Shown here: piece after piece, positions 56,359 to 64,000 of the stretch
Layout: every line of letters begins with the position of its first letter
How positions within the stretch are numbered: the stretch's first letter is position 1
Assembly (NCBI GenBank): GCA_003225295.1
Contig: QHYZ01000061.1
Span: 1-64,000, forward strand
Reading direction: 5' to 3'
Source of the DNA: Acidobacteriota bacterium
Lineage (GTDB): Bacteria; Acidobacteriota; Terriglobia; Acidiferrales; UBA7541
DNA: 64,000 bases
Notes under the pieces: model-generated
What the model was told of the DNA's origin: nothing
Database searches by the model: none
What the model saw: the letters and a program-made list of their open reading frames with translations, nothing else
Position numbers and translations under genes: made by a program

Positions 56359-59076
56359 TCACTCGTACCTCAGCGCCACCATCGGATCGACCTTCGTCGC
56401 GCGGCGGGCCGGGAAATAAGTTGCAGATAGCGCTACCAGGATGAGCAACGACAGCGCGCCAAGAAAAGTCAGCGGGTCGGTATTCGTCACGCCGAACAGC
56501 ATCCGCTTGATCAGCCATGCCGACCAAAGCGCCAGCACTAATCCGACGGCGAGTCCAACGCCAGCAAACCGCATGGCGCGTCGCATGAAGAGCGAAACAA
56601 TATCTTTGCCGCAAGCACCAAAAGCCATCCGTACGCCAATTTCAGGAATGCGCTGGGTGACGAAGTAATGCATCACCCCGTACACACCGACCGCCGCGAG
56701 CAGCAGCGCAAGCGCCGAAAATAGTCCCATCAGCCAAGCCTGAAAACGCCTCGCCGCGGTTTGCTCACGCAGCACGTCCTGCATGGTGGTGATACCGGAA
56801 AGGATGACGCTCTTATCGAGCGAACGGAGGGTGCTGCGGATGGTCGGCGCCAGTTGCATCGGGTCAGCGGAGATTCGCACTATCAAGTTAGGCGTGGCTT
56901 CTCCCCTTTGCGCCTGAACCTCGTAAATCTCTGCCAGGGGCACCCGTTCGAGACCATGGCTGCGCATATCCGCGACGAGCCCCACAACCGTCACCCACTC
57001 GTCATTGCGGCCCCGCGGATCGAATCCCTTTAACCGCTTGCCGATACTGTCTTCGCCGGGCCAATACCGTTTCGCCAACGTCTGATTGATGATTGCCACT
57101 GGAGGGGATTCCGGCCCATCCTGTGGCGTGAAGTATCTGCCTTGAAGCAGGGGGATTGCCATGGCGCGAAAATAATCGCCACTAACCTGCGTCCAAACCA
57201 GCGGCGTCCAACTGCCGATGGGCTCGGGGGCATGTCCTTCGACCTGGCGCAGCGCGTGATTCTGGTTCTCCTCGAGAAAGAAGATGTTGCCGACGGTGCC
57301 CACGGCTTCGACCCCGGGTATTTTGTGCAGTCGCTCCCAGGCCCGCTGGTAATAATCAGCCATGCGGGCAGGAGGAGTGGCGTCCGGATTGGCAAATTGC
57401 ACTTTCATCGTGAGTAGGTGATCGGGTTGGAAGCCGGGATCGAGTGCCAGCACTTCGACAAAGCTGCGGATCAGCAGGCCGGCACTGGCCAGTAAGACTA
57501 GCGAGAGCGCAAACTGAGCTCCCACCAGCAGTCCCTGTAGTCCAAGTGTGCTGCTTGCGGTGCTTTGCTGGCCGGTCTTCAGCAACTCATGGGGACCGGC
57601 GGCGGAAAATCGGCGCGCCGGCGCCAAACCAAAACCGAGGCCACAAAGCAGCGCGAGCAAAAAACTGAAGACCAGCACAGCGGTATCAATCCGGGTTTCA
57701 TCAAGACGCGGAACGGTGAGCGGGGACAGTGCCACGAGCAGATGGAGTGCAGGACCTGTGAGTAGCACGCCTGCGCCGCCGGCGATGATCCCCAGTAACA
57801 CGGATTCCGTCAGGAGCTGCCGAATGACCCGCCAGCGAGTGGCGCCCATGGCCACCCGCACCGCCAACTCCCGCGCACGCGCGACGCCGCGTGCGAGAAA
57901 GAGAGTTGTGAGATTGGTGCAGGTCAGGAGCAGCAGCAGTAGGACGCAGAGTGAAAGCAACAACAGCGGCCGGCGCATTTCGCCAGCGATATACTCATTG
58001 AGTCGGCGCACTTCGACACCCAGCGTCTTGTCGGAATCAGGGTACTGAAGCGCCAGGCGTGCCGCGATCGTGTTCATCTCTGCCTGTGCGGCTTCGAGCG
58101 GCATCTTCGGACTCAACCGTGCGATGACTTGGAATCTGGCAACGCCTTGCGGACGCGTCTGGCTGAATGGATCGCTGGACGAAGGCTCTTCGTATGGGTT
58201 CGTTGTCAGGGGCGCCCAGAGTTGCACCTCGCCCTCAACGCGGTTCTCCCAGTGGCCCGCGAGAAAGGGAAAGCGGAACTGAGGCGGCATCACGCCCACC
58301 ACCCGCCAAGGCTGGCCGTCAATATTGATATCGTGGCCTAGGGCTTCAAGCGAGCCGCCGAAGCGCGACTGCCAGAGTCCATGACTCAGAATGACCACCC
58401 GTTCGCGGTGCTGCAAATCCTCATCGCTAAAGGCGTGACCGAGGAGCGGTTGAACGCCCATGAGCGCGAAGAGATTTGCCGAGACGAAGGCCCCTTGGAC
58501 CTTCTCTGGCTCCTCGCCGGTCAGGGTAACTACCGACCAGCCTCGCTTGTAGAAGATAGCCAGATCCTCAAAGGTATGTGCCTGACGGCGCCATTCGAGA
58601 AAGTCGCGATAACTCGTGCTTCCGTCGGTAACGGCCCAACCGCGGGGGCGCGAGTCCGTAACCCAGAGCATCGTTAATTGTTCAGGGTTCCTATAGGGTA
58701 GCGGACGAAGGAGTACGGCGTGCACGACACTGAAGACCGCAGCGTTGGCACCGATACCGAGCCCGAGGATCAGTACCGCAAGAGCAGCGAAGCCAGGATT
58801 CTTCTCTAGCGTGCGCATGCCATAACGCAAATCCTGGAGGAAGCCTTCGACGTGGTTCACGCCGCGCGCGTCGCGGCACTCCTCCTTGGCGCGCTCGAAT
58901 CCGCCAAAGTCCATCCGCGCTCGCCGCAGCGCCTCCTGGCGCGGCACGCCGCTGCGCACCAAATCCTCCGCGACTGCCTCGATGTGAAATCGCAGCTCCG
59001 TATCCATCTCGCTTTCCATGCGAGAGCGCCCCACCAGGGCGGGCCACCAGGAGCGAAAGCGACTCAACAAAGTCAT
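56359..59076 (-). CDS. ADOP-type FtsX/MacB-like permease
   Basis: The 905-residue protein has an N-terminal cytoplasmic helical region (MESEMDTELRFHIEAVAEDL, DFGGFERAKEECRDARGVNH), then the MacB-PCD/FtsX pattern twice: GANAAVFSVVHAVLLRPLPY, the extracytoplasmic domain with SGDYFRAMAIPLLQGRYFTP, and the last helices with LLAAVGVYGVMHYFVTQRIP. This duplicated layout without an ATPase is the 'acidobacterial duplicated orphan permease' class. Met20 at 59076 (MTLLSRFRSWWPALVGRSRM) is the start. Its start codon lies in the last codons of the padR gene, so the two are translationally coupled. Transport substrate unknown. Confidence 0.88.
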   Translation of the reverse strand: MTLLSRFRSWWPALVGRSRMESEMDTELRFHIEAVAEDLVRSGVPRQEALRRARMDFGGFERAKEECRDARGVNHVEGFLQDLRYGMRTLEKNPGFAALAVLILGLGIGANAAVFSVVHAVLLRPLPYRNPEQLTMLWVTDSRPRGWAVTDGSTSYRDFLEWRRQAHTFEDLAIFYKRGWSVVTLTGEEPEKVQGAFVSANLFALMGVQPLLGHAFSDEDLQHRERVVILSHGLWQSRFGGSLEALGHDINIDGQPWRVVGVMPPQFRFPFLAGHWENRVEGEVQLWAPLTTNPYEEPSSSDPFSQTRPQGVARFQVIARLSPKMPLEAAQAEMNTIAARLALQYPDSDKTLGVEVRRLNEYIAGEMRRPLLLLSLCVLLLLLLTCTNLTTLFLARGVARARELAVRVAMGATRWRVIRQLLTESVLLGIIAGGAGVLLTGPALHLLVALSPLTVPRLDETRIDTAVLVFSFLLALLCGLGFGLAPARRFSAAGPHELLKTGQQSTASSTLGLQGLLVGAQFALSLVLLASAGLLIRSFVEVLALDPGFQPDHLLTMKVQFANPDATPPARMADYYQRAWERLHKIPGVEAVGTVGNIFFLEENQNHALRQVEGHAPEPIGSWTPLVWTQVSGDYFRAMAIPLLQGRYFTPQDGPESPPVAIINQTLAKRYWPGEDSIGKRLKGFDPRGRNDEWVTVVGLVADMRSHGLERVPLAEIYEVQAQRGEATPNLIVRISADPMQLAPTIRSTLRSLDKSVILSGITTMQDVLREQTAARRFQAWLMGLFSALALLLAAVGVYGVMHYFVTQRIPEIGVRMAFGACGKDIVSLFMRRAMRFAGVGLAVGLVLALWSAWLIKRMLFGVTNTDPLTFLGALSLLILVALSATYFPARRATKVDPMVALRYE

Positions 59077-59414
59077 ACTTCCGCTGGTGTCGTGTGCAGG
59101 ATTCCAGCGATGACCTCTGCCATGCGGTTCCACTTTTCGGTTTCGCTTTGCAGCCTGCGCTTTCCGGCCGCGGTGAGGCGGTAATACTTCGCCTTTCGAT
59201 TGTTGTCCGACTCACCCCATTCACTCGCAATCCAACCCTGATGTTCAAGGCGATACCGGGCGGGATACACAGAGCCTTGCTGAATCTCCAGACGATCTTT
59301 TGAGCTCTGTTGAATGCAGAGCAGAATGCCGTAGCCGTCGAACGACCCGAGGGAAACGGCCTGGAGGATCAGCATGTCCAGCGTGCCCTGCAGAAGTTCG
59401 AGTTGCTGATCCAC
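59073..59414 (-). CDS. PadR family transcriptional regulator (ADOP-linked)
   Basis: A 113-residue PadR: DQQLELLQGTLDMLILQAVS, LEIQQGSVYPARYRLEHQGW (the winged-helix recognition region) and SDNNRKAKYYRLTAAGKRRL. The ATG at 59453 lies inside the spacer of the promoter (59443-59471), so translation must start later: GTG 59414, with AGGAGAGACC upstream. It overlaps the ADOP permease start by 4 nt and so probably represses its own operon through the half-sites in the promoter. Confidence 0.85.
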   Translation of the reverse strand: MDQQLELLQGTLDMLILQAVSLGSFDGYGILLCIQQSSKDRLEIQQGSVYPARYRLEHQGWIASEWGESDNNRKAKYYRLTAAGKRRLQSETEKWNRMAEVIAGILHTTPAEV

Positions 59415-59426
59415 GAAAGCGGTCTC

Positions 59427-59471
59427 TCCTAGAAGGACTAGGAATATAATCATAGTCTCCTAGATTGTCAA
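59427..59471 (-). promoter_or_regulatory. padR-ADOP promoter with three half-sites
   Basis: Minus strand: TTGACA (59466-59471), 17-bp spacer, TATATT (59443-59448), near-perfect. On the plus strand the hexamers TCCTAG (59427-59432), CTAGGA (59438-59443) and TCCTAG (59458-59463) lie in alternating orientation, forming one dyad with a 5-nt gap near the transcription start and one with a 14-nt gap across the -10 and spacer. This is a probable operator for the PadR regulator. Confidence 0.7.
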
Positions 59472-59968
59472 GGAGAGAGACAAGCTGCTCATCTCGCCGC
59501 CCCTGCGGCCTAATCGCTCCGCCTGCGGCGTCCGAGGCCTTCGTTTCCCTAGAAAAAGCTTTCGAAGCCGCGAAGGTTAGGCTTCAGGCAGTGATGGTCA
59601 AGGTTTAACGCCGCGCCACAACGCAGCTAAGATTTTCTTCAGCGCTTGCTGGGCATACAGCCAGCGGAATCACTGGAGGCTGCTCGGGTGGACGGGAATG
59701 ATGCCGTTTGGCCTCTACGGAATCATCAAGATTCAAGATTCTCCCGAGCGGTTCAATTTTTTCCGTGCTACAGAAGCGCCCAAGACCGGCTCTTTCAAAG
59801 CGCCCAAGACCTGACAGAAAACGAAGTGCGCGCTCAACTAGAAGTGGCGGGCCTACCGCAAGCTGGAATGGATTCACGGATTTAAGAAGCGCGAAGCGCG
59901 TACGAGAGAACGAGGAACAGCTTTCAGCCCCCACTCATTCCTGAGCAGGCGCGGTTGCGACTCTCCCC
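59472..59968. other. intergenic between two divergent PadR-ADOP modules
   Basis: About 500 nt. It contains a direct repeat of AAGCGCCCAAGACC (59774-59787 and 59798-59811). The short frames here lack start signals or domains. Possibly a remnant of an earlier gene: a region around 59700-59850 has Arg/Lys-rich coding-like frames but nothing recognisable. Confidence 0.4.
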
Positions 59969-60008
59969 TTGCGCTTCTACAAGAGAAGCGCTATCTTCCC
60001 TGTAGAAG
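59969..60008 (+). promoter_or_regulatory. padR2-ADOP2 promoter and dyad
   Basis: TTGCGC (59969-59974), 17-bp spacer, TATCTT (59992-59997). The perfect 8-bp dyad CTTCTACA-N19-TGTAGAAG (59974-60008) brackets the -10 element. TCTACA/TGTAGA-type arms fit a PadR operator. The promoter elements themselves are weak. Confidence 0.55.
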
Positions 60009-60022
60009 TGATAGGGGAACGA

Positions 60023-60355
60023 ATGGCGGACCGCCGAATCGATCTCCCTCAAGGCACTCTGGACCTCCTGATTCTCCGCACCGTCGCTTTGGAGCCCCTG
60101 CACGGCTGGGCGATTTCTGAGCGCATCCACCAGATTTCCAGCAAAGTTCTGTTTGTGCAGCAGGGCTCGCTGTATCCCGCGCTCCATCGCCTGGAGCGCA
60201 AGGACTGGATCACCGCGCGCTGGGGAGTATCGGAGAACAATCGCCGCGCCAAGTTTTATGAATTGACTCGGCTGGGGCGCAAACAACTGGAACTTCAAGA
60301 AAGCACTTGGCGCACCCTCGCCGCCGCCGTGGCGCAAATCCTCGAGACCACTTAG
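60023..60355 (+). CDS. PadR family transcriptional regulator (second ADOP module)
   Basis: A 110-residue PadR from ATG 60023 with AGGGGAAC upstream: MADRRIDLPQGTLDLLILRT, VLFVQQGSLYPALHRLERKD and SENNRRAKFYELTRLGRKQL. It parallels the regulator at 59073-59414 and lies 9 nt before the permease gene at 60365. The upstream in-frame ATG at 59969 lies inside the promoter and dyad and is rejected. Confidence 0.9.
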   Translation: MADRRIDLPQGTLDLLILRTVALEPLHGWAISERIHQISSKVLFVQQGSLYPALHRLERKDWITARWGVSENNRRAKFYELTRLGRKQLELQESTWRTLAAAVAQILETT

Positions 60356-60364
60356 GAGACGCTC

Positions 60365-63073
60365 ATGCTGAATGACTTGCGGTTGCGTTTGCGCGCCCTC
60401 TTTCGCAGGAAAGCCGTGGAAGTGGAAATGGACGAGGAACTCCGCTTTCACTTCGAGAATCAGGTCGCCAAGCTCATGCGGTCCGGTTGGACGCCGGCAG
60501 AAGCCCAGCGCCGCGCCCGGTTGGAGTTTGGCGGCATGGAACAGATCAAAGAGGAATATCGCGAGGCCCGCGGCGTGAGTTTCATCGGAACATTCGTCCA
60601 GGACATCCGCTTCGGTCTCCGCATCCTCGGCCGGACACCGGTGATTACCTGCGTTGCCGTTGTGTCACTCGCTCTGGGAATCGGAGCCCATACCGCCATC
60701 TTCAGCCTCATAGACACGGTCATGCTCCGGCTGCTCCCGGTCCAGAAACCCGAAGAGTTAGTGCTGCTAGCCAGAACCCATGCGCTGCTGGAAAGTGATC
60801 CCACTCCCTCCTTTACCAACGCTCTGTGGGAAGAAGTCCGCGACCATCAGGACGTTTTTTCGGGTGTCTTTTCCTGGAGCGACAGCAAGTTCGACCTCTC
60901 CCGTGGTAGGGCGGTCCGCCAGGCCAATGGAATCTTTACGAGCGGCAACTATTTCAGAACGCTGGGTGTCCCACCGGCTGCCGGGCGCTTAATGGCAGCG
61001 GCCGACGATCAACCTGGCTGCCCGGGTGTTGCGGTATTGAGCTACGGATTCTGGCAGGATCATTTTGGCGCGGCAGAAGGCGCGGTCGGCGGCACGATTT
61101 CACTGGACCATCACATTTTTCAAATCGTGGGGGTCAGCGCACCAGGCTTTTACGGCGTGGAGATCGGCCAGAATTTCGACGTGGCGGTCCCGGTTTGCGC
61201 GGCGGCTATTTTCGACGGCAAAGAATCGCGCCTCGAACATCGTTCTTGGTGGTGGCTGAGGATCATAGGCCGCCGAAAGCCCGCAATCAGTGTGGAGCAG
61301 ATCAACGCGCGGCTCGGCGTGATCTCGCCGGAGGTTTTTGCCGGCGCCTTGCCGCCAGACTGGGATCCGCAGGGAAAGAAAGATTTCCTCAAGCTAAGGC
61401 TGGTCAGCTCTCCGGCGGCGACCGGAACGTCATATCTTCGCAGGCGCTTCGGAGAGCCGCTCCACATCCTGATGGCCGTGGTCGGACTGGTGCTGCTCAT
61501 CGCCTGCGCCAATATCGCCAGTCTGATGCTGGCCCGCGGCGCCGCGAGAAACAAAGAAATCGCCGTGCGCAAAGCTCTTGGAGCAACCCGAGCCCGCCTG
61601 ATTCGCCAACTGCTGACGGAATGCATCTTGCTTTCCTCGGCGGGAGCCGTCTTGGGAATTCTTTTCGCTCGCTGGGGAAATGCCCTATTGGTACATTACA
61701 TCTCGACCGGAAGAAATCCGGTGTTCTTGGACCTGTCGCTGGATGGCCGCGTGCTGGCCTTCACCGCCTCGGTCGCCGTTCTCACCGGCACACTGTTCGG
61801 CGTACTTCCCGCACTACGCTCGACGAAGGTTTCGTTATCAGCGGCGATGAAAGGCCAGCAGGCCGAAGAGAGCGAGCGCCGGGTCCGATTCCGTCCCGGG
61901 AGGTGCATCGTAGCCTTCCAAGTGGCGCTTTCGCTGGTCCTGCTGGTCACTGCCGGCTTGTTTCTGCGCAGCTTCGTGAAGCTGGTAACGCTCGACATCG
62001 GCTTCGACCGCAACAACGTCCTAGTCGTAAATGCTAATCTGAAAACCGCGAAGGTGCCGCGGGAGCGGCGTCTCGCCGTCTACCAGGACATCGAGAACCG
62101 TTTGCGTGCTCTTTCCGGAGTCGTCGCGGCGGGGCGGTCGGTTATGACGCCCATCAGCGGTTATGAGTGGAACGACCGTATCCATGTAGATTCGCCAAAC
62201 GCCCCGACCGGGGAAGCCTCGCTGTGCTATTTCAACTACGTCTCGCCGGGATACTTCGGAACCATGCGCAGCCCCATCCTGACTGGCCGTGGCTTCGACG
62301 CCCGTGACACCAGCACGGCGACAAGTGTTGCGATCATCAACCAAACTTTGGCGCGCAAGTTTTTCGCAGGTGTCAATCCGACCGGAAAATATTTCCGCCT
62401 CGATCCCGCGAAGCCCGGACAGCCTGCCCCAACTATCCAAATCGTCGGAGTCATCAAGGATGCGAAGTACGAGTCTCTCAGGGAAGAGACTTACGCCACG
62501 GCGTTCTTCCCAATTGCACAGATCCCGGAAAATGATGAAGAGGAAAATTTCGAGATCCGCTCAACCGCGCCGCCAACGGCCCTGATTTCGGCCGTTCAGG
62601 AGAGCATTGCCATGGTCAACAAAGAGATTCCCTTGGAGTTCCACACCCTTCGACAGCAGGTGGATGATTCTCTCGTTCAGGAGCGCTTGCTGGCCACGCT
62701 CTCGGGATTCTTCGGCGGCCTGGCACTGCTTCTGGCGATGATCGGCCTATACGGCGCCCTTAGCTACCTGGTGACCTTGCGGCGACGAGAATTCGGGATA
62801 CGCATGGCTCTCGGAGCGCTGCCGCAATCGATTCTCGGCCTGGTGATGCGAGACCTCGCCGTGGTTCTCATCGGCGGAGTGGGCGCCGGTGCAGGCCTGT
62901 CCTTCCTTACCGTTCGCCTGCTCCAGAAAATGCTCTTTGGCCTGAGTCCTCACGATCCGGCAACGATCGCGGCAGCCATTGGCCTGTTATCCGCGGTTGC
63001 GCTTCTGGCGGGTTATCTTCCGGCACGCCGCGCCATGCGCGTAGATCCCATCGTCGCGCTGCGGTACGAATAA
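60365..63073 (+). CDS. ADOP-type FtsX/MacB-like permease (second module)
   Basis: The 902-residue protein repeats the architecture of the 56359-59076 permease: cytoplasmic N-terminus (MDEELRFHFENQVAKLMRSG, EFGGMEQIKEEYREARGVSF), then the two FtsX-like halves (GAHTAIFSLIDTVMLRLLPV; VALSLVLLVTAGLFLRSFVK; LLLAMIGLYGALSYLVTLRR; LPARRAMRVDPIVALRYE). The two permeases are recognisably related but diverged. No ABC ATPase is nearby, as expected for the orphan class. The 9-nt gap from padR2 implies one operon. Possible roles are export of toxic compounds or lipid handling, not shown by the sequence. Confidence 0.88.
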   Translation: MLNDLRLRLRALFRRKAVEVEMDEELRFHFENQVAKLMRSGWTPAEAQRRARLEFGGMEQIKEEYREARGVSFIGTFVQDIRFGLRILGRTPVITCVAVVSLALGIGAHTAIFSLIDTVMLRLLPVQKPEELVLLARTHALLESDPTPSFTNALWEEVRDHQDVFSGVFSWSDSKFDLSRGRAVRQANGIFTSGNYFRTLGVPPAAGRLMAAADDQPGCPGVAVLSYGFWQDHFGAAEGAVGGTISLDHHIFQIVGVSAPGFYGVEIGQNFDVAVPVCAAAIFDGKESRLEHRSWWWLRIIGRRKPAISVEQINARLGVISPEVFAGALPPDWDPQGKKDFLKLRLVSSPAATGTSYLRRRFGEPLHILMAVVGLVLLIACANIASLMLARGAARNKEIAVRKALGATRARLIRQLLTECILLSSAGAVLGILFARWGNALLVHYISTGRNPVFLDLSLDGRVLAFTASVAVLTGTLFGVLPALRSTKVSLSAAMKGQQAEESERRVRFRPGRCIVAFQVALSLVLLVTAGLFLRSFVKLVTLDIGFDRNNVLVVNANLKTAKVPRERRLAVYQDIENRLRALSGVVAAGRSVMTPISGYEWNDRIHVDSPNAPTGEASLCYFNYVSPGYFGTMRSPILTGRGFDARDTSTATSVAIINQTLARKFFAGVNPTGKYFRLDPAKPGQPAPTIQIVGVIKDAKYESLREETYATAFFPIAQIPENDEEENFEIRSTAPPTALISAVQESIAMVNKEIPLEFHTLRQQVDDSLVQERLLATLSGFFGGLALLLAMIGLYGALSYLVTLRRREFGIRMALGALPQSILGLVMRDLAVVLIGGVGAGAGLSFLTVRLLQKMLFGLSPHDPATIAAAIGLLSAVALLAGYLPARRAMRVDPIVALRYE

Positions 63074-63234
63074 ATCATGCCGCCTTGGGCGCCTAGGGAT
63101 AGCACCTCCGACCGCGGGGAACTTTTTTTGCCATCATTGATTAGCTGCTTGCCAGATTGCTTGATTGACGATGCGCCGCGCAATCCGTTACGGTGTTCGA
63201 CGAGACCGATCCGCTCTACAACCGAGGTGCTCCA

Positions 63235-64000
63235 ATGATCTTCTATCTCCTGACGTTTTCATTTCCCGAGTGGCGGCCGCACTTCGCCTTCCTCGACACG
63301 GCCCACGCGAACGAGATGATGGCCTTGCGGTGGCTGCACCTCATTTTCGGCATCATCTGGATAGGCCTGCTGTATTTCTTCAATCTGGTCCTGACGCCGG
63401 CGATGAAAAAGTGTGATCCCCAGCTGCGCATCAAGATCTATCCCCAGCTGATGCCCGGCGCCATGGGTTGGTTTCGCTCGTCGGCGCTGGTAACAGTGCT
63501 CGTGGGAATGCGCTACTTCAGCATCCATCTGGCCGCGGATGCGAAACTTGCGGGCGATCCCTCGCTGACTGGCAAGTGGTTCGCGTGGTGGCTGCTGGTG
63601 TGGCTCGCCGCCTATGTGTTCCTTTACGCGCTGCAGCTTCCGGCGAAAGGAATTCTCGATAGAGCGTGGGTACGGATGATTGGAATTTCCGTAGTGGTGG
63701 TGGCAGCGTCCTGGCTGGTGCTCGCTTTGAATGGCGGGCCCAATGTTTCCAACGCGCACCTGGCCATCAGCGTGGGCGGAGGACTCGGTTTCATCATGCT
63801 GCTGAACACTTGGGGAGTCATCTGGCGGGTGCAGAAGCGTCTCATCGCCTGGGCGCGCACCAGCGGAGAACAAGGTGTGCCGATGCCGCCGGAAGCCGAG
63901 CGGCTGATGCGTTGGAACTATCTCACCGCGCGCACCTCGTTCTGGCTGTCCTTCCCCATGCTCTTCTTCATGGGCGCCGCCGGCCATTACCCGTTCCTGA
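63235..64000 (+). CDS. PuuD/urate-oxidase-N type membrane protein (partial)
   Basis: The frame from ATG 63235 is open to the window edge (about 255 residues seen). MMALRWLHLIFGIIWIGLLY, the NLVLTPAMKKCDPQLRIKIY loop, MGWFRSSALVTVLVGMRYFS and NTWGVIWRVQKRLIAWARTS match the membrane domain found at the N-terminus of PuuD-type urate oxidases (often followed by a cytochrome c domain). At least five membrane helices are visible. Whether a c-type haem domain follows cannot be seen. In other bacteria this domain occurs without urate activity. Confidence 0.75.
   Translation, partial: MIFYLLTFSFPEWRPHFAFLDTAHANEMMALRWLHLIFGIIWIGLLYFFNLVLTPAMKKCDPQLRIKIYPQLMPGAMGWFRSSALVTVLVGMRYFSIHLAADAKLAGDPSLTGKWFAWWLLVWLAAYVFLYALQLPAKGILDRAWVRMIGISVVVVAASWLVLALNGGPNVSNAHLAISVGGGLGFIMLLNTWGVIWRVQKRLIAWARTSGEQGVPMPPEAERLMRWNYLTARTSFWLSFPMLFFMGAAGHYPFL

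Follow-up and report, generated by a model that had tools for sequence, protein, structure and literature searches.

A putative operator, the padR gene behind it and the N-terminal prefix (first ~70 residues) of the ADOP permease encoded next very probably behave, as judged from sequence comparisons, as a cassette that became attached to a wide range of permease bodies. Two modules of this kind were analysed in the window, i.e. the whole 64,000-nucleotide stretch of DNA from an Acidobacteriota bacterium, and were compared with related modules of the same and other genomes. On balance we favour a reading in which PadR-ADOP modules are autorepressed operons with an exchangeable regulatory cassette and a contact between prefix and PadR; its parts are held with different confidence and are graded separately below. 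The cassette behaviour is new here: among the matches listed in a search of open-licence papers, and within the text portions available from these, neither the operators nor a cassette exchange were described.

The earlier note on this DNA had described two back-to-back modules, each with a padR gene directly before an orphan permease, and this was confirmed by gene order and family scores (Table 1), both PadRs exceeding the curated cut-off of TIGR03433 (padR_acidobact, 101.8) and both permeases that of TIGR03434 (ADOP, 622.3). In both modules a standalone padR adjoins the ADOP gene; the start of ADOP1 overlaps the stop of padR1 as ATGA, and nine bases separate the padR2 stop from the ADOP2 start. 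Helices were predicted in a model of the ADOP2 prefix (mean pLDDT 73.5, pTM 0.53, from an alignment of two sequences). Downstream of ADOP2, the beginning of a Urate_ox_N-matching protein (63193-63999) ends at the window edge.

Table 1. Features of the two divergent PadR-ADOP modules; positions refer to the window.
Feature	Position	Strand	Description
ADOP1	56359..59076	-	duplicated MacB/FtsX-type permease without ATPase domain; TIGR03434 904.4 bits; MacB_PCD and FtsX matches
Prefix domain of ADOP1	58873..59037	-	NF038403 perm_prefix_1, E 1.3e-14
padR1	59073..59417	-	GTG start; TIGR03433 138.6 bits; probably relaxed or decaying
padR1 promoter/operator	59427..59471	-	-35 59466-59471; -10 59443-59448; half-sites 59456-59464, 59438-59443, 59427-59432
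padR2 promoter/operator	59965..60017	+	inner arms 59974-59981, 60001-60008; outer arms 59965-59968, 60014-60017; -35 59969-59974; -10 59992-59997
padR2	60023..60355	+	ATG start; TIGR03433 148.9 bits; constrained
ADOP2	60365..63073	+	duplicated MacB/FtsX-type permease without ATPase domain; TIGR03434 879.7 bits
Prefix domain of ADOP2	60386..60562	+	NF038403, E 8.7e-18

The window corresponds to contig C287 in an assembly of 8.13 Mb with 385 contigs and 69 PadR matches, 54 of which are followed by an ADOP. The back-to-back arrangement is not unique to the window, since divergent PadR matches were also found at C58, C367 and C259. At least 67 ADOPs over the TIGR03434 cut-off are encoded in this genome (67 of 236 candidates scored), a lower bound, and all ADOP counts for it refer to these 67; at least 67 were found in each of two genomes. 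As orphan permeases, ADOPs have an ATPase domain neither within the protein nor beside it; the MacB tripartite efflux pump has an ATPase domain. This domain is absent from both window ADOPs, ABC_tran giving no match at E<=0.001 in either of them and none on their contig. An ABC ATPase match within 3 kb was found for five of the 67 scored ADOPs, all five without prefix and without a PadR within 900 bases, and for none of the 43 prefix-bearing ones, so that the description as permeases lacking an ATPase holds for the PadR-linked prefix type. Of the scored ADOPs, 27 have a PadR no more than 900 bases away, and 26 of these carry the prefix; among the 40 others it was detected in 17, the HMM used having been trained on PadR-linked ADOPs and being biased toward those. 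A departure from the PadR-linked type is seen at G000:C69:10458-21967, where four prefix-less ADOPs alternate with two genes for ABC ATPases. No experimental function of ADOPs was found among the matches listed in the search of open-licence papers, as far as their text was available.

In the padR1 promoter the three half-sites that had been noticed earlier are indeed present: TCCTAG-N5-CTAGGA occurs once in the window, at 59427-59443 (0 in 100 shuffles), and the third half-site, TCTAGGAGA, lies on the minus strand at 59456-59464. The hexamers TTGACA-N17-TATATT at 59471-59443 (minus strand) are an 11/12 promoter match, with 0.1 expected in the promoter scan. TCTAGGAGA stands right after the -35 and TCCTAG right after the -10; the Shine-Dalgarno position is occupied by CTAGGA. 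Since the ATG at 59453 falls into the spacer between -35 and -10, upstream of any transcript from this promoter, padR1 starts at the GTG at 59417, where its relatives have ATG, GTG or (one) TTG; the earlier rejection of the ATG as padR start is thereby upheld. Among 41 genomes, the padR1 operator pattern was found at 14 places in seven genomes (reversed control 0), 12 of them before a padR1-type gene followed by a prefix-bearing ADOP frame and two (C84:15506 and G006:C22:2675) before an ADOP that has lost its padR or retains a broken one. Six places belong to this genome: a padR1-type padR accompanies five of them, that of the window among these, and at the sixth the padR is broken. In 15 of 18 padR1-type promoters the spacer has 17 bases, and in those 15 the half-sites and hexamers show little or no variation and seven spacer columns are freely variable. 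From G000:C84:15506 to about 24000 (L098, L227, L247, L258), three ADOPs stand in a row behind one padR1-type operator with a broken padR, and the prefixes of all three are closest to padR1-type ones.

The padR1 gene itself looks relaxed from its substitutions and may no longer encode a working repressor. Compared with its closest relative, dN/dS was 1.74 (dN 0.085, dS 0.049), a value resting on 106 codons with few changes, and padR2 gave 0.065 against G013. It is rather probable that the padR1 module is decaying, with padR1 function lost and ADOP1 either released from repression or under the control of sibling PadRs in trans, which is compatible with the main reading. Consistent with decay are the ratio of padR1, that of the sibling padR pair C160/G015 (1.26, with 0.00 for C110/G015), the residue changes HGY -> DGY (shared with the closest relative) and YPAL -> YPAR, and the persistence of operators at C84 and G006:C22. 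The dN/dS of ADOP1 (0.34, inflated as the relative's N-terminal stretch reads in another frame) also counts for decay of padR1. Against it counts that ADOP1 is itself less constrained than the C110 ADOP (0.20 for C110/G015; 0.23 for C160/G015); the intact open frame of padR1 and the small number of codons and changes also weigh against decay.

The evidence for the exchangeable cassette comes from modules in which closely related PadRs stand before different bodies. The PadRs of padR1 and C58 are 86% identical and their ADOPs 43%; for padR2 and G013 the values are 85% and 39%. In five pairs compared along the DNA, a stretch of high identity begins near the operator and spans padR and prefix; beyond the prefix, at roughly +500 to +700 from the start of the padR domain, identity falls off. 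With the prefix located by HMM, 112 of 127 modules were usable (54 of 127 with motif anchoring), and these gave 280 pairs with PadR identity >=0.7, which are not independent; 21 of the 112 modules are one subfamily. Across identity bins of these pairs, prefix medians were 0.61-0.74 and body medians 0.36-0.37, against backgrounds of 0.35 for both. Bodies were below 0.6 in 253 of the 280 pairs, and in 13 of these 253 the prefixes were below 0.45; conversely, ten pairs with bodies >=0.6 and PadRs <0.6 have prefixes of only 0.24-0.53. Twenty PadR subfamilies have at least two members, and 17 of them occur on two or more bodies (counted at 0.55 identity).

Linkage alone would explain why a prefix travels with the padR that it adjoins, and the identity edge could equally result from a crossover within the conserved first membrane stretch. 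Therein lies the case for ordinary autoregulated PadR-transporter operons like LmrR-LmrCD, in which PadR would bind a small molecule, the ADOP would export it and the prefix, an N-terminal appendage, would hitch-hike with padR; LmrR (PMC4534193) and LftR (PMC6457526), in the portions of these papers that were available, possess ligand pockets and recognise operators of the genes that encode them. Tandem arrays bear on this explanation, as their downstream ADOPs are at least one permease gene away from padR. Twelve arrays in which a PadR heads two or more ADOPs were chosen, four in this genome and eight in G018 (arrays without such a head were left out: C84, C237 and C259, and C128, C232, C45 and C9 of G018), and the prefixes of their 22 downstream ADOPs were matched against all 52-54 PadR-linked prefixes found in the same genome. 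For 16 of these 22 the best prefix match was the first ADOP of their own array, and for 20 of 22 it was the own array or its PadR subfamily; the remaining two (G018 C85) matched best a PadR-linked prefix whose PadR is 0.65 identical to theirs. The background prefix identity in this comparison was 0.34 (95th percentile 0.46). Over the initial 100 residues of the body, the median identity to the array's first ADOP was 0.44 (19 of 22 measurable; background 0.37). For a third ADOP, of G018 C173, a short stretch gave 0.88. Outside this count, the two downstream ADOPs of C84 matched best padR1-type prefixes (0.73 and 0.76), and prefix-bearing ADOPs without PadR at C31, C35, C53 and C364 had no PadR-linked match above 0.54.

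The longest case is G018:C136:585-20212, where one PadR heads seven tandem ADOPs with prefixes 0.89-1.00 identical to the first and bodies, in the four compared, 0.33-0.38 identical over 578-642 residues. The synonymous distances of the prefixes (0.28-0.91) are far below those of the bodies (1.95-3.39), which argues that exchange or conversion was involved and not selection alone. Matching prefixes on near-background bodies, together with the lack of neighbouring ATPase genes among prefix-bearing ADOPs, count against the ordinary-operon explanation, which keeps a real if minority chance. The matching could also have arisen by tandem duplication with later body exchange, or by gene conversion without contact, and the 13 pairs with divergent prefixes, the two downstream ADOPs of G018 C85 and the four PadR-less prefixes speak against a strict coupling of prefix and PadR. 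Cassette exchange and prefix matching within arrays nevertheless lend support to a contact between the two, which is put forward tentatively, at somewhat less than even chances.

For the autorepression part of the favoured reading, the second promoter provides a perfect dyad, as had been stated before: CTTCTACA-N19-TGTAGAAG occurs once in the window, at 59974-60008 (0 in 100 shuffles). The hexamers TTGCGC-N17-TATCTT are too weak for the promoter scan and were therefore placed by their position in relatives; an automatic choice of -35 and -10 was rejected as misplaced by this measure. CTTCTACA begins at the last base of the -35, TGTAGAAG comes after the -10, and CCCC and GGGG flank them outside; the dyads of both modules bracket the -10 of sigma-70-like promoters. 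In the 41 genomes the padR2 dyad was found at four places, all directly before padR and two of them in one genome from another family of the class; the reversed pattern had five places, and therefore only position, not number, speaks for the dyad. Among seven aligned padR2 relatives, three have T-A at one arm position, three have G-C there and one has a mismatch; 97.6% of the dyad cells pair (43-52% when slid). Only one inner pair is variable, and 53 of 500 column shuffles matched this score, so that the paired change is no more than suggestive. A blind best-dyad search of the padR2 promoter picked GCGCTTCT-N5-AGAAGCGC (59972-59992, p=0.03) instead, which is not kept in the aligned relatives, whereas the arms of the reported site are; in the padR1 promoter the best hit was an outer repeat (p=0.15) and not the reported site. 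Support for both window dyads as candidate operators that differ between the two PadR types thus comes from conservation, not from the single sequence.

A wider promoter sample comprised 94 padR genes, chosen from 181 distinct ones at <=80% identity and with enough upstream DNA, and 93 control windows placed 130 bases further upstream. This test was used because that on this genome alone was weak per sequence (best single dyad at p<=0.05 in 16 of 68, 60 shuffles). A best inverted repeat at p<=0.05 was found in 40 of 94 promoters and in 8 of 93 controls (Fisher sums of 469, with 188 degrees of freedom, and 173, with 186, respectively), which agrees with the expectation that other such promoters carry dyads too. 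In some promoters the arms take in the -35 hexamer, as at locus L171 with 15 of 15 bases paired. Against the operator reading stand the 54 of 94 promoters without a dyad at p<=0.05, the single variable inner pair and shuffle matches of padR2, and its more frequent reversed pattern. It is very improbable that these repeats represent mRNA hairpins or arose by chance: the downstream arm partly overlaps the Shine-Dalgarno region and the blind searches missed both window sites, but across many promoters dyads are in excess of both shuffles and control windows, their positions are fixed, and the upstream arm, starting at the -35, lies outside the transcript. Separately, L010, L163, L204 and relatives have operators with only 4-10 bases between the arms, near the start codon and with almost no leader; their messages are possibly leaderless.

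The proposal that each PadR has its own operator was not supported in that form, the padR1 operator being common to five other places of this genome. Promoter windows of two PadRs are alike only above about 0.7 PadR identity, with a steep rise there, so that operators are specific to PadR subfamilies and not to individual PadRs; confidence in such sharing within subfamilies is high. Since several modules of one genome share an operator, control in trans could occur, and the control unit would be the PadR subfamily with its operator, not the single gene.

In the mechanism that we propose, a PadR dimer would bind the dyad bracketing the -10 of its own promoter and block polymerase, and once repression is lifted, repressor and permease would be made together; such autorepression is highly likely for PadR-ADOP modules. 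The prefix, presumably cytoplasmic, might then be the contact between ADOP and PadR, with the permease body as an exchangeable membrane sensor or sink holding or releasing its PadR. A further-reaching version, in which prefix-bearing ADOPs are not transporters but a large group of exchangeable membrane receptors, the subfamily-specific prefix binding the PadR of its own array and the variable MacB-like bodies sensing outside signals, appears rather unlikely at present; in it, recombination after the prefix would plug new sensor bodies onto old regulatory heads, and a single PadR could respond to as many as seven different bodies in one array.

The NCBIfam families TIGR03433 and TIGR03434 presumably go together, and the window modules resemble them in that PadRs and permeases both score over the curated cut-offs. 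For these families, operators, a shared regulon or cassette exchange were not described among the matches listed, as far as the sources were available. The closest precedent is the HAAS-PadR dyad, in which, according to the available part of PMC11237479, PadR adjoins a membrane protein with an N-terminal helical domain, fusions to FtsX-like/MacB-PCD permeases occur, and signalling from domain to PadR is proposed as an alternative to two-component systems. A standalone PadR beside a membrane partner with an N-terminal domain is common to both, and a contact of the prefix-PadR kind has thus already been proposed there in general form; that proposal argues, in the part available, from gene neighbourhood, and the cassette exchange and the prefix matching in arrays provide evidence of a different kind. 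Identity of the prefix with HAAS is unproven, because the Pfam HAAS model (PF22564) had no match up to E 10 in the two window prefixes and five weak matches in this genome, none over the cut-off, and a fold search of the prefix model against the PDB gave no match at E<=0.001. Two of the five weak matches fall within long reading frames: one, of 902 residues, immediately follows a PadR, and the other, of 917 residues, is an ADOP belonging to the C200 array.

For other systems, autorepression of PadR operons is well established (PMC6624303, PMC4534193, as far as available). In the accessible text of PMC6624303, the PadR of the Listeria LltR/lmo0600 operon represses this operon, which includes a DUF1700 membrane protein; a PadR encoded together with a membrane protein is shared with our modules, where autorepression is likely, and the MacB-type body is lacking there. 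LmrR and LftR, of the PadR-2 subfamily, are in the portions available PadRs of ~110 residues that bind a palindrome in their own promoter; size and promoter palindrome are similar here, and the partner transporters differ. The available part of the Solibacter paper PMC3174227 does not mention PadR-ADOP.

Conserved operators would tell which PadR type controls a set of ADOPs, and the prefix rule would predict the PadR partner of each permease. As operators and prefix rule together name the controlling PadR, a possible role of ATPase-less permeases as PadR receptors becomes directly testable. The diverged operators also form a natural collection of PadR-operator pairs for learning recognition. 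The comparisons suggest that these ATPase-less permeases may work partly as membrane receptors.
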